NCBI GenBank assembly: GCA_013334755.1
Contig: JAAXWX010000021.1
Location: forward strand, 1-34,560
Source of the DNA: Chlorobiaceae bacterium
Lineage (GTDB): Bacteria; Bacteroidota; Chlorobiia; Chlorobiales; Chlorobiaceae
Length of the DNA: 34,560 nt
Reading direction: 5' to 3'
Both the position numbers and the translations under genes were made by a program. The notes under the pieces are model-generated. The model was not told the DNA's origin, made no database searches, and saw nothing but the letters and a program-made list of their open reading frames with translations. Below are positions 27,420-31,650 of the stretch, one piece after another (positions within the stretch are counted from its first letter, which is position 1; each line of letters starts with the position of its first letter).

Positions 27420-28175
27420 TTATCGTGGTTCATGGGTTTGAGAAATCGGCTCTCCTTGAACAATCACATCAACCGGATAACGGTAGAGTTCTTCAAGTTT
27501 TTTTCTTCCCGGCGATGACCCCTCAAGCATGTCAAGTTTGCTGTTCAGACAGGCTATTCGGTTTACATGACGGCTTATAGTCCCGGTATCGTGACTGACA
27601 AGAATAATGGTGAGCTTTTCTTTCAACTGATCCAGCAGATCATAAATGGTGGTTTTCATCTGAGGATCAACACTTGCTGTAGGCTCGTCGAGCAGCAATA
27701 ATTCAGGCTCTCCGGCAAGTGCCCGGGCAATAAGTGCCCGCTGCAGCTCACCTCCTGACAATGCCCCTATCCGGCGCTCCCTCAAAGGCTCAAGACCAGC
27801 CGTACGTATCGCCGAATCAGCTTTTTCTCTGTCAGCAGAGTTATAGTGCTGAAAAAGTTTTTTTTTCGACAATCTCCCCATCAGAACCAGGTCAATCACA
27901 CTGATCGGAAAATCACGGTCAAAAAAAATCCGCTGCGGCACGTAACCGATGCGCCCCGGTGAACTGCCTGGATCCCTTCCGAAAACTGTGACTTTGCCGC
28001 CGGACGGTCTTTCCAGACCAAGCATCACCCTGAGCAGCGTGGTCTTGCCCCCGCCATTGGGACCCACTATCCCGAGAAAATCCCCTTTATAAACCGAAAA
28101 AGTCAGTTCGTCAAGCACGTTGACGCCTCCCAGGCTGACTGAAAGAGAGTCACATTCTATAACAAGTGCATTCAT
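27420..28175 (-). CDS. znuC: Zinc ABC transporter ATP-binding protein (ZnuC-like)
   Basis: The 251-residue ATPase has Walker A GPNGGGKTTL, Q-loop (YVPQR), signature LSGGELQRALIARAL, Walker B LLLLDEPTASVDP and H-loop His in VSHD. It belongs to the metal-type ABC ATPases close to ZnuC/MntA. It powers the permease encoded just downstream. Its ATG overlaps the stop of the binding-protein gene (28172-28175, ATGA). The C-terminal tail is short, without the His-rich extension seen in some ZnuC proteins. Confidence 0.9.
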   Translation of the reverse strand: MNALVIECDSLSVSLGGVNVLDELTFSVYKGDFLGIVGPNGGGKTTLLRVMLGLERPSGGKVTVFGRDPGSSPGRIGYVPQRIFFDRDFPISVIDLVLMGRLSKKKLFQHYNSADREKADSAIRTAGLEPLRERRIGALSGGELQRALIARALAGEPELLLLDEPTASVDPQMKTTIYDLLDQLKEKLTIILVSHDTGTISRHVNRIACLNSKLDMLEGSSPGRKKLEELYRYPVDVIVQGEPISQTHEPR

Positions 28176-29059
28176 TGCATGCTGCTGATAAACGTTTCCG
28201 TGGCACGACGGAGGTTCCCCTGGTAATCAGCCGAGAGAGGATCAACACTGCGGGTTACCCCCCTGATTTCTGCTGCAATGGTTTCTGCCTGTGACGTGCT
28301 GAACTGGGGGGATACAAACACAACCCTGATGCGGTTCGCCCTGGCTTTTGCGATCACAAGCTGCATCTGACGGGGAGTCAGTGTCTTACCCTCCTCCTCA
28401 ACCGCAATCTGTTCAAGCTGGAAAGCAGCGGCGTAATAACCCCATGCAGGATGAAAAACCAGAAATCTCCGATGTTTTATCCCTGCAAGGTCCTGACGAA
28501 TCTCCCTGTCAAGAGTACGCAATTCAGCCACAAGCTTCTTCCTGTTTACCTCATAGGAACTCCGGTTAGCCGGATCGGCTTCTGCAAGAGAACGTGCAAT
28601 ATTATTTGCAATCACAATACCGTTCTCAGGAGAGAGCCAGTAATGAGGATCGAGGTGGCCGTGATGATTCCCGCTCTCGTCACCCTCATGCAGCAGGGGA
28701 ATAAGAGGTACCCCAAGAGATGCATCACAGACCCTGAGCCCTGGATTGAGCGAAAGAAACCGCTGCATCCAGTCAAGTTCGAACGCCACTCCGGAACCGG
28801 CTTTTATAAAAAGTGCCGCATCACCAAGCCTTGCCATCTGCCGGGGCGATGGCTCATAACTGTGAGGATTTCCTCCGGGCGGGACCATTACCGATACAGC
28901 GGTATGCCGGCCGCCTATTCGTCCTGCGAAGTAGGAAAGTGGCTCGATGGAGGTAACAACCTGCAGTTTTCCCGTTTCGGACTGCTGAGCGCAACCGCAG
29001 AGAAAAAAAGTCAGCAACAGAACAGGAAATGCAAACCATCTTGTCTGTATATGGTTCAT
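28172..29059 (-). CDS. znuA: Zinc ABC transporter substrate-binding lipoprotein (ZnuA-like)
   Basis: The 295-residue protein has a lipoprotein signal (FPVLLLTFFLCGC, Cys23) and the cluster A-I metal-binding fold. The expected ligands are visible: His in GGNPHSYEPSP, His in DPHYWLSP, His in FHPAWGYYA, and an acidic residue in VDPLSADY. A short His-rich loop (ESGNHHGHLDPHYW) precedes the second ligand, as in zinc-type binding proteins. It captures zinc in the periplasm for the ABC permease. It overlaps its neighbours by four bases on both sides: the Fur-type regulator upstream and the ATPase downstream. Confidence 0.9.
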   Translation of the reverse strand: MNHIQTRWFAFPVLLLTFFLCGCAQQSETGKLQVVTSIEPLSYFAGRIGGRHTAVSVMVPPGGNPHSYEPSPRQMARLGDAALFIKAGSGVAFELDWMQRFLSLNPGLRVCDASLGVPLIPLLHEGDESGNHHGHLDPHYWLSPENGIVIANNIARSLAEADPANRSSYEVNRKKLVAELRTLDREIRQDLAGIKHRRFLVFHPAWGYYAAAFQLEQIAVEEEGKTLTPRQMQLVIAKARANRIRVVFVSPQFSTSQAETIAAEIRGVTRSVDPLSADYQGNLRRATETFISSMQ

Positions 29060-29493
29060 CCTGATGCCTCCGTTTCCTCTGATGCACAGGCAGCACAGAT
29101 CCCCTTTAGCTGCACCACATGGCTCACAAGCCGGAATCCGTCAATCACCATACCCTTCTGATAGCCGCACGCATCCACCTGACCAATTTTTCCGCATGAG
29201 ATACAAATAATGTGATGGTGATGATGCTCTTCCTGTTTCGACATGCAACAAAGTGCATAACTCCGTTCACGGCCAAAATTCACAACACGAAACAGTACCC
29301 CGCATTCCGCAAGTGTTTCAAGATTACGATAGACACCCGGCAGTCCGCACCGCCTGAACTGCAGCTTCAGCCTGTCCAGAACCTCCTGCGGAGAAAGAGG
29401 AGTGGATGCGGTCGAAAACAGGATAATCATCTCCCTGCGGCGGGGTGTGAGCTTCAGGCCCGCCTCCTTGATCAAGGTATAAGCTTCCTTCAT
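29056..29493 (-). CDS. Fur-family regulator, probable Zur
   Basis: The 145-residue regulator has the Fur N-terminal winged helix (GLKLTPRRREMIILF, LSPQEVLDRL, GLPGVYRNLETLAECGVL), which binds DNA, and a metal-binding C-terminal half. HHHHHIICISCGKIG is the usual Fur metal site region; Cys97/Cys100 and Cys133/Cys136 (CAAC) form the structural zinc site. It is first in a transcript with znuA, znuC and znuB, which makes it Zur rather than Fur, by inference. Its own start lies a few bases from a perfect palindrome that could be its operator, giving autoregulation of the operon. Confidence 0.88.
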   Translation of the reverse strand: MKEAYTLIKEAGLKLTPRRREMIILFSTASTPLSPQEVLDRLKLQFRRCGLPGVYRNLETLAECGVLFRVVNFGRERSYALCCMSKQEEHHHHHIICISCGKIGQVDACGYQKGMVIDGFRLVSHVVQLKGICAACASEETEASG

Positions 29494-29606: not shown

Positions 29607-31289
29607 TCAGGAAAGCCGGTTCAACGCACTGACAATAGCTTTGATCGAAGCAAGACTGATATTCGAGTCGATACCTGCACCGCAGGAAACACCGCCGTCA
29701 GCAGAGCCTATTTTAATATAGGCTATGGCAAGAGCTCCAGCGCTATGCCCGATCGCGTGCTCGGCGTACTCATCAACGCTGAACTCAAGACCACTTTCCC
29801 TTATAAATCCCTTGACAAACGCATCAAGAGGACCATTCCCGTGTGCCTTAAAGCTGAACTCCTTATCTTTCATCTGCACAACGCAACTGATGAGAGTAGC
29901 CTCTTCATCGTTGCGTTCAGGGTCATCATCATCCCAACTGATATGACACTTCTTAAGAGCCACAGGCTCCTTGAGTTTCACATACTCGGAATAAAACAGG
30001 TCATGAATCTGCTCTGTGGAAAGCTCAATACCGGTATTGTCCGCTACCGCCTGAACCGCTTCGGCAAAATCAGGCTGCATCCATTTCGGTATCTGAATCC
30101 CGAAATCCTTCTCCAGAACGTAGGCGACGCCACCTTTACCTGACTGGCTGTTGATGCGGACAATAGCCTCATAATTGCATCCGACATCCTGAGGGTCAAT
30201 CGGCAGATAAGGAACCGCCCACAAACTGCCGGGCGACTTGGCATGAGCTTTCATTCCCTTGCTGATTGCATCCTGATGTGAACCGGAAAAAGCCGTATAG
30301 ACCAACTCACCAGCATAGGGATGACGGGGATGAATATCCATACGGGTACATCGGCGGTAAACCTCCCGTATGCGGGGAAGATCGGAAAAATCCAGTTCAG
30401 GATCGATACCCTGACTGAACAGGTTCAGAGCCATGATCACGACATCCATATTGCCGCACCGTTCGCCGTTACCGAACAAAGCCCCCTCAACCCGATCTGC
30501 ACCAGCCATGACGGCCAATTCGGCGGTAGCTACAGCTGTCCCTCGATCATTATGGGCATGAACACTGATCAAAACAGCATCCCTCGCCTTGATGTTGCGA
30601 CAGAACCACTCAATGCGGTCAGCGTAAAGATTCGGTTGTGACATTTCAACTGTTGAAGGCAGGTTCAGGATAATTTTTTCATCCGCCGAAGCCCCCCAGG
30701 TATCCATAACCGCATGACAGACATCAAGTGCATAATCAAGCTCCGTACCAGTAAAACTTTCAGGGCTGTACTCGAAACGGATCCCTGCGTTGCCAGTCTC
30801 ATCCTTCAGGCGGCGAACAAGAGCTGTGCCCTCTACAGCAATAGCCTTGATCTCCTCCCTGTTTTTGCGGAACACCACATCCCGCTGCAGGCTCGACGTT
30901 GAGTTATAGAGATGAACAATAGCATGTTTTGCGCCTTTTATGGAGTCAAAGGTTTTACGAATCAGGTGTTCCCGCGCCTGGGTCAGTACCTGTATAGTGA
31001 CATCATCCGGAATCAGCTTCTCGTCAATCAATCTGCGTACAAACGCATACTCAGTGGCAGATGCTGATGGAAAGCCCACCTCGATCTCCTTGAACCCCAC
31101 AGAGAGAAGAAGCTGGAACATGGATACCTTTTCCTCCACACTCATCGGTATCGGAAGCGCCTGGTTACCATCCCGGAGATCAACACTGCACCATATCGGC
31201 GCTTTTGTGATGCTCTTGTCAGGCCAGCTCCTTGCGGAAATTGCAACCGAAGGGTACGCTGCGTATTTGTGATACTTCATCTTTTTCAT
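29607..31289 (-). CDS. leuA: 2-isopropylmalate synthase (LeuA)
   Basis: The 560-residue enzyme has the HMGL-like catalytic barrel beginning WCSVDLRDGNQALPIPMSVEEK (DRDG-type metal/substrate motif), EVGFPSAS, and the second metal motif in SVHAHNDRGTAVATAELAVMAGADRVEGALFGNGERCGN. The length and sequence fit the LeuA2/yeast-type class. The C-terminal third (from ~430) is the LeuA allosteric domain, ending SADGGVSCGAGIDSNISLASIKAIVSAL, so leucine feedback is likely. It condenses acetyl-CoA with 2-oxoisovalerate, the first step of leucine synthesis. GGAAGAGG lies upstream of the ATG. Transcription attenuation is very likely: see the leader peptide and terminator upstream. leuB/C/D are not in this window. 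Confidence 0.95.
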   Translation of the reverse strand: MKKMKYHKYAAYPSVAISARSWPDKSITKAPIWCSVDLRDGNQALPIPMSVEEKVSMFQLLLSVGFKEIEVGFPSASATEYAFVRRLIDEKLIPDDVTIQVLTQAREHLIRKTFDSIKGAKHAIVHLYNSTSSLQRDVVFRKNREEIKAIAVEGTALVRRLKDETGNAGIRFEYSPESFTGTELDYALDVCHAVMDTWGASADEKIILNLPSTVEMSQPNLYADRIEWFCRNIKARDAVLISVHAHNDRGTAVATAELAVMAGADRVEGALFGNGERCGNMDVVIMALNLFSQGIDPELDFSDLPRIREVYRRCTRMDIHPRHPYAGELVYTAFSGSHQDAISKGMKAHAKSPGSLWAVPYLPIDPQDVGCNYEAIVRINSQSGKGGVAYVLEKDFGIQIPKWMQPDFAEAVQAVADNTGIELSTEQIHDLFYSEYVKLKEPVALKKCHISWDDDDPERNDEEATLISCVVQMKDKEFSFKAHGNGPLDAFVKGFIRESGLEFSVDEYAEHAIGHSAGALAIAYIKIGSADGGVSCGAGIDSNISLASIKAIVSALNRLS

Positions 31290-31318
31290 TGCACCTCTTC
31301 CTTTTTTATCTTTAAACG

Positions 31319-31353
31319 AAAAAAGCCACCAACCCTAAGAGGCTGGCGGCTTT
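31319..31353 (-). terminator. leuA attenuator terminator
   Basis: On the minus strand a 13-bp stem (AAAGCCGCCAGCC with GGTTGGTGGCTTT, two U-G pairs) with a 6-base loop is followed by six U residues. It lies about 30 bases before the leuA start and 30 bases past the leader-peptide stop, the standard place for an attenuator. Confidence 0.85.
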
Positions 31354-31382
31354 AACAATGTTCTCTCTGGCTGATAAACGAA

Positions 31383-31454
31383 CTAAAAGACACCTCCCCT
31401 CAGGAGCAGATTGCCCAAGGTTAGCAGAAGGTTGTTAATGTTCGTGATGCCCAT
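31383..31454 (-). CDS. Leucine leader peptide (leuL-type)
   Basis: A 23-codon ORF reads MGITNINNLLLTLGNLLL and then RGGVF-stop. Seven of 23 residues are leucine, in two runs of three plus one single. The Leu codons are CTT CTG CTA, TTG, and CTG CTC CTG. The ORF stops 29 bases before an intrinsic terminator that precedes leuA. This is the classic arrangement of ribosome-mediated attenuation: with scarce charged tRNA-Leu, the ribosome stalls on the Leu codons and terminator formation is avoided. The ribosome binding site is weak (AAGAA upstream). The function is inferred from layout. Confidence 0.82.
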   Translation of the reverse strand: MGITNINNLLLTLGNLLLRGGVF

Positions 31455-31509
31455 GCAGGTATTCTTGTATTTGAACTGACCGATTTCATTATGATTTCAA
31501 AATAAAAAA

Positions 31510-31539
31510 ATAACAGAAGCATACAATGGCGGGTATCAA
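31510..31539 (-). promoter_or_regulatory. Candidate promoter for the leuA leader transcript
   Basis: TTGATA (31534-31539) and TGTTAT (31510-31515) are separated by 18 bases on the minus strand. A start near 31502 would leave about 50 bases before the leader-peptide ATG. It is the best sigma-70-like match in this stretch, judged by eye only. Confidence 0.4.
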
Positions 31540-31650
31540 TTTTTTCTGATGCACGTGAATTTACGGGTTGAACAGAAGTGATGACAAGAGGGAAAAAACG
31601 CCTGAGTTCAACGCACCGATACCTGACTTCCGATGAATGGAATGAAACAA

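Follow-up and report, generated by a model that had tools for sequence, protein, structure and literature searches.

A probable ribosome-mediated leucine attenuator upstream of a second leuA gene in Chlorobiaceae

We analysed a 34,560-nucleotide stretch of a Chlorobiaceae contig (hereafter the window), in which a leuA gene on the minus strand is preceded, in 5'->3' order, by a tRNA-Asn gene, a terminator-like site, a promoter, a short leader open reading frame (ORF), a terminator and a sequence resembling a ribosome-binding site. The gene product is termed LeuA2 (for type-2 leuA), a label of our own. The following features were located, the helices being predicted structures:

31760-31688, minus strand: tRNA-Asn gene, ending 233 bases upstream of the leader
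31684-31650, minus strand: terminator-like site of tRNA-Asn (terminator scan)
31499..31526, minus strand: promoter, with TTGTAT (31526-31521), a 16-base spacer and TATTTT (31504-31499) (promoter scan)
31383..31454, minus strand: leader peptide ORF of 23 codons, 7 of them Leu, from ATG (31454-31452) to TAG (31385-31383)
31430-31422, 31418-31416 and 31409-31401, minus strand: Leu codons of the leader (read from the sequence)
31440..31445, minus strand: protector 5' strand ACGAAC, leader codons 4-5 (covariation test)
31378..31383, minus strand: protector 3' strand GUUCGU, the last base of the stop codon and the five next (covariation test)
31380..31402, minus strand: antiterminator 5' arm (region 2), UGAGGGG.GGUG.CUUU..GUUC (window folding and covariation)
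31336..31363, minus strand: antiterminator 3' arm (region 3), GAAC......AAAG.CGCC..CCUCUUA, overlapping the terminator 5' arm and loop
31322..31353, minus strand: intrinsic terminator, a 14-pair stem with a loop of 4, then a T run (terminator scan and covariation)
31294..31301, minus strand: ggaagagg, ribosome-binding site of leuA (read from the sequence)
29607..31289, minus strand: leuA2, 2-isopropylmalate synthase of 560 aa, with its ATG at 31289 (profile matches)

A preliminary description of the window had placed a promoter about 50 bases upstream of the leader ORF, a 13-bp terminator 29 bases past the leader stop and the leuA ribosome-binding site directly after it. The TTGTAT/TATTTT promoter was indeed found, its TATTTT box lying 44 bases from the ATG; the distance from the stop to the stem start at 31353 was reproduced, and ggaagagg is present at 31301-31294. 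The terminator itself also held, but the scan gave its stem 14 pairs (31353-31322) instead of 13.

LeuA2 matched NCBIfam TIGR00970 ('leuA_yeast') with 733.1 bits (cut-off 697.4) and contains the domains PF00682, PF22615 and PF08502, including the LeuA_dimer allosteric dimerisation domain. In the same genome, ilvD, ilvB, an ilvN-like ORF, ilvC, leuB, a bacterial-type leuA (leuA1; TIGR00973, 698.6 bits), a leuC-like gene, a leuD-like ORF and cimA follow each other in a row; the ilvN-like and leuD-like ORFs gave no match at E 1e-100 and were named by position and by eye. As this row carries a bacterial-type leuA too, the profile matches identify LeuA2 as a second isopropylmalate synthase. Downstream of leuA2 (27420-29493, minus strand) lie genes for a FUR-family regulator, a ZnuA-like protein and an ABC ATPase, likely a zinc-uptake cluster.

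The leader ORF encodes the peptide MGITNINNLLLTLGNLLLRGGVF. In agreement with the preliminary description, its 23 codons include seven for Leu, of five kinds and arranged as two triplets and one single (CTT CTG CTA / TTG / CTG CTC CTG). No obvious Shine-Dalgarno site was seen at the leader start in the window sequence. When the 211-base leader was shuffled 5000 times with its dinucleotides preserved, 4.3% of the shuffles contained a short ORF with at least seven Leu codons. The window ORF by itself was therefore only mildly unusual compared with chance, and the case for an attenuator rests on conservation.

To this end, 80 loci with leuA relatives were gathered. Six non-Chlorobi loci (L070, L073, L077, L078, L080, L085) and a 3' fragment (L074) were set aside; by the automatic filter, five of these six lacked a Leu-rich ORF, and L073 had only one, about 400 bases upstream. 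Two loci at contig ends, L010 (28 bases upstream) and L063 (163 bases upstream), stayed outside the count, although L063 shows the terminator and part of the leader. According to the preliminary description, relatives that keep leuA but have lost leader and terminator would speak against attenuation. Among the other Chlorobi leuA loci, 71 had 347 or more bases of upstream sequence, and 67 of these kept both parts; nine leaders missed by the first automatic Leu-rich filter were recovered by reading and by a most-Leu-rich-ORF rule. The leader was absent from the remaining four: L044 retained the terminator, L029 had neither part, and in L025 and L082 a tRNA-Asn was followed directly by the terminator. 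These four natural losses offer ready controls. Across the alignment, an ORF with 4-12 Leu codons was present in 68 of 68 rows, the leader of each row being whichever ATG ORF close to the aligned start was richest in Leu. Leu triplets were distributed 513/177/59 over frames 0/+1/+2 of the 68 leaders, a contrast that is overstated because the leader frame was partly picked for its Leu content. The region-2 sequence was retained even in lineages whose frame stops earlier (L007, L015, L016, L047, L072, L054-L056), and its conservation therefore looks like a constraint at the RNA level.

In all, 98 genomes of the class were searched both for leuA2 and with a covariance model of the protector and terminator pairs, built from the 68 sequences. 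The model matched 80 of the 98 genomes (79 strongly), a figure to be read with the provision that the sequences used for building match by construction and that loci and genomes are largely the same assemblies, not independent. leuA2 was detected in 83 genomes, in 78 of them with the element just upstream; it lacked the element in G023, G032, G062 and G085 (leader lost) and in G081 (contig end). G018 gave a strong element match with leuA2 undetected in the genome, and the match in G032 (E 0.0038) was not at leuA2. All genomes with an element-bearing leuA2 belong to one family (86 genomes, two genera), and neither leuA2 nor the element was found in the 12 genomes of the order's other families. 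Extra genomic copies of the element were considered as well, but the weak matches inspected, in 7 loci (E 1e-4 to 4e-3), resemble ordinary terminators. Of these, L151 (G032:C104:1270-1364), downstream of a thioredoxin-reductase-like ORF (named by eye) in the genome of the leaderless L082, resembles the 3' half of the attenuator, with GTCAGAGAGAACTTTGTTGAAGCCGC plus a hairpin.

The helices were tested on an alignment of 68 rows (A1) against 500 shuffles, which ignore relatedness, with slid registers as a control. Covariation scores were 0.191 for the antiterminator (0.166 shuffled), 0.159 for the terminator (0.130 shuffled) and 0.201 for the protector ACGAAC:GUUCGU (0.149 shuffled), and in each case none of the 500 shuffles reached the observed value. 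The true register outscored the slid ones for all three helices; for the protector, 81.1% of cells were paired, compared with 76.2% in shuffles and 27-47% in slid versions. Pairs changed on both sides showed no excess over shuffles for terminator, antiterminator or protector in the 68 rows. The antiterminator buries most of the terminator 5' arm plus the loop, and as modelled the terminator, antiterminator and protector helix are mutually exclusive. A different alternative pairing had been proposed in the preliminary description, between TTAACAA and TTGTTAA. Both strings are present (from 31438 and from 31358, respectively), but conserved pairing was not borne out, with 58.7% of cells paired, below the shuffled mean of 60.2%. 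The alternatives supported instead are region 2 with the terminator 5' arm and loop, and ACGAAC with GUUCGU.

Folding with the ribosome at defined positions, assuming free RNA from 14 bases past the first base of the A-site codon, gave the outcomes of a classical attenuator for the window. Protector and terminator were predicted to form with no ribosome, the antiterminator (-21.2 kcal/mol) with a ribosome at the first Leu codon and polymerase at the loop, and the terminator only with a ribosome at the stop. Folded to its end, the stalled window RNA favours the terminator (-36.5 kcal/mol); for the antiterminator to prevail, it has to form before the terminator does, as is usual in attenuator systems. 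Over the 68 sequences, mean sequestration of the terminator 5' arm was 0.48 with no ribosome, 0.75 with a stalled one and 0.22 with one at the stop, exceeding 0.5 in 28, 68 and 0 of the 68, respectively. The 28 sequences predicted to sequester the arm with no ribosome are ambiguous in that state, unlike the classical default of termination. In the stalled state, only 20 of 68 sequences exceeded their own mean under shuffling of region 2 by more than 0.2, with a mean energy z of +0.9 and a window z of about 0.

The locus thus shows a Leu-rich ORF before the gene, an intrinsic terminator between leader and gene, and a predicted antiterminator that excludes the terminator and would be freed by stalling; for the last, composition has to be taken into account, as shuffling region 2 alone still gave a mean arm sequestration of 0.60 in the stalled state (compared with 0.75) because region 2 is G-rich. 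Conservation, covariation and folds argue for the attenuation reading first proposed from the leader and terminator before leuA, and we consider it highly likely that the element is a classical ribosome-mediated leucine attenuator, here in Chlorobiaceae. We infer that the leader is translated, that transcription terminates in vivo and that this responds to leucine; the element would very probably turn leuA down when leucine is plentiful. Judged from the promoter, transcription would start about 38 bases upstream of the leader ATG. When Leu-tRNA is short, the ribosome would stall at the Leu codons and mask ACGAAC, leaving region 2 (31402-31380) free to pair with the terminator 5' arm and loop; the terminator would then be blocked and leuA transcribed. 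With ample Leu-tRNA, the ribosome would reach the stop and cover region 2, so that the terminator could form and transcription would end upstream of leuA. If no ribosome is present, region 2 would be held by ACGAAC:GUUCGU and ACCUUC:GGAGGU and the terminator would form, a prediction that is clear for the window and not for all relatives.

Codon choice in the leaders was compared with 354 long ORFs from the same loci, which are mechanical calls and may include false genes. The rare codon CUA made up 11.4% of Leu codons in group A leaders (53 rows) and 1.5% in genes (Fisher p 2e-23, kinship ignored), and 26.6% in group B leaders (15 rows) and 0.7% in genes (Fisher p 2e-29, kinship ignored), i.e., it was about 8-fold commoner in leaders in one group and 38-fold in the other. 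Among CUN codons, its share rose from 1.8% in genes to 13.0% in leaders (group A) and from 0.8% to 30.2% (group B). CUA occurred in 31 of 53 group A and 15 of 15 group B leaders, at ten alignment columns. For the other 4-fold codons, third-position A did not rise in group A leaders (19.7% in genes, 15.5% in leaders); it also rose in group B (11.7% to 22.9%), and the group B enrichment may therefore be partly compositional. An enrichment of CUA is as expected if the leader acts as a leucine sensor.

A hairpin downstream of a tRNA gene could also be a mere terminator insulating leuA from tRNA-Asn, the ORF being incidental. The tRNA-Asn at 233 bases from the leader in the window fits this explanation, as do L025 and L082, where the tRNA directly precedes the hairpin and the leader is missing. 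However, a separate terminator-like site (31684-31650) follows the tRNA-Asn gene, 66 of 68 leaders are preceded by a promoter of their own (a TTGnnn box and a TAT box, in most cases separated by 16 bases), and a forward tRNA-Asn within 700 bases was found in only 10 of the 80 upstream stretches scanned, 5 of them cut short. With the Leu-rich frame and the covariation left unexplained as well, we regard insulation as very improbable. In L031 and L038, tRNA-Asn lies 44-46 bases upstream of the leader, in place of the promoter; together with L025 and L082, where the leader is gone, these loci look like a natural deletion series.

Slightly less probable still is control of translation rather than termination, with the peptide ORF or an RNA fold gating the leuA start. 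There is a precedent in the actinobacterial LEU element, whose run of Leu codons is proposed to pair with the Shine-Dalgarno box of leuA (PMC1262725), yet in Chlorobi the leader and leuA are separated by a conserved terminator and its T run (the window folds end upstream of the leuA ribosome-binding site). A T-box or another tRNA- or ligand-sensing riboswitch would serve the same gene function with a downstream terminator, but is scarcely credible, given that at gathering score Rfam families matched only tRNA and that a survey counted no T-box in any of 7 Bacteroidetes/Chlorobi genomes (PMC2494555). The Rfam leucine operon leader and T-box models gave no match, either at gathering score or with E values as high as 10 across 31280-31560, where all matches were far below gathering scores and the only leader family was Phe_leader (E 7.6).

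For the leucine attenuator favoured here, known systems offer partial parallels. The leader of the Escherichia and Salmonella leu operon is leuL. Like the Chlorobi element, this attenuator has a leader with Leu codons including the rare CUA and acts on leucine synthesis; Rfam scans found no sequence relation, and the Chlorobi leader differs in its leuA type, its mixed Leu codons and the position of leuA2 apart from the main leu genes. The Salmonella attenuator contains three CUA codons, and their replacement by CUG lowered sensitivity (PMC1183508). The CUA enrichment in Chlorobi makes the theory of codon choice in attenuators (PMC1183508) testable in a distant group. In Staphylococcus aureus, a non-proteobacterium as well, the ilv-leu genes have a Leu-rich attenuator peptide, a terminator 52 bases past its stop and an alternative fold, but the leader precedes ilvD, contains Ile codons too and belongs to the Firmicutes (PMC5794164). 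The actinobacterial LEU element shares a Leu-run ORF before leuA; it differs in its proposed pseudoknot and in that other attenuator elements are reported as missing and mutations as inconsistent with classical attenuation (PMC1262725). For Flavobacterium psychrophilum (Bacteroidetes), 'strong clues' for leader-peptide attenuation before amino-acid operons are mentioned in a general statement that names no leucine leader (PMC9723704).

Naville and Gautheret (2010) described leader peptides as known only in Proteobacteria and Actinobacteria and added Firmicutes (PMC2965389). A 2013 survey including 11 Chlorobiales genomes used the four Rfam models then available and suggested a perhaps gamma-proteobacterial origin of attenuators with very few transfers (PMC3766115). 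The range has since been widened by the S. aureus (PMC5794164) and Flavobacterium (PMC9723704) reports. Our literature search did not find a published account of a Chlorobi leu attenuator (Lopatovskaya et al. 2010 may include one); the element would be a textbook control circuit in a group for which that search found no description. That a family-wide Chlorobiaceae leu attenuator goes unmatched in Rfam argues that such switches are overlooked because the models are sequence-specific. Tentatively, and at somewhat less than even odds in our view, leucine attenuation may have arisen independently in green sulfur bacteria, converging on the enterobacterial rare-codon sensor CUA, and may control the stand-alone LeuA2 as a leucine-tuned valve beside an ilvD-ilvBNC-leuBACD-cimA operon with its own LeuA1 and Val/Ile leader.

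Short ORFs before hisG and trpE in the window genome, read by eye for leaders, included none that was striking. Before the ilvD-ilvB-ilvC-leuB-leuA1-leuC-cimA operon, we observed a Val/Ile-rich leader, MATHVPNSLNSWIGIAVTVTAVLVSITVL, at about 29762-29851 of G000:C73 (L158, L161). Under a rule of at least 6 Ile/Leu/Val residues making up at least 28%, with an ATG, GTG or TTG start in the 300 bases before ilvD, an Ile/Leu/Val-rich ORF was present upstream of ilvD in 21 of 30 loci; a less stringent rule gave such an ORF in 14 of another 20 loci. The Val/Ile leader is followed by the conserved CCCAAGTCC and a hairpin-like stretch, GGCTTCGGGA.
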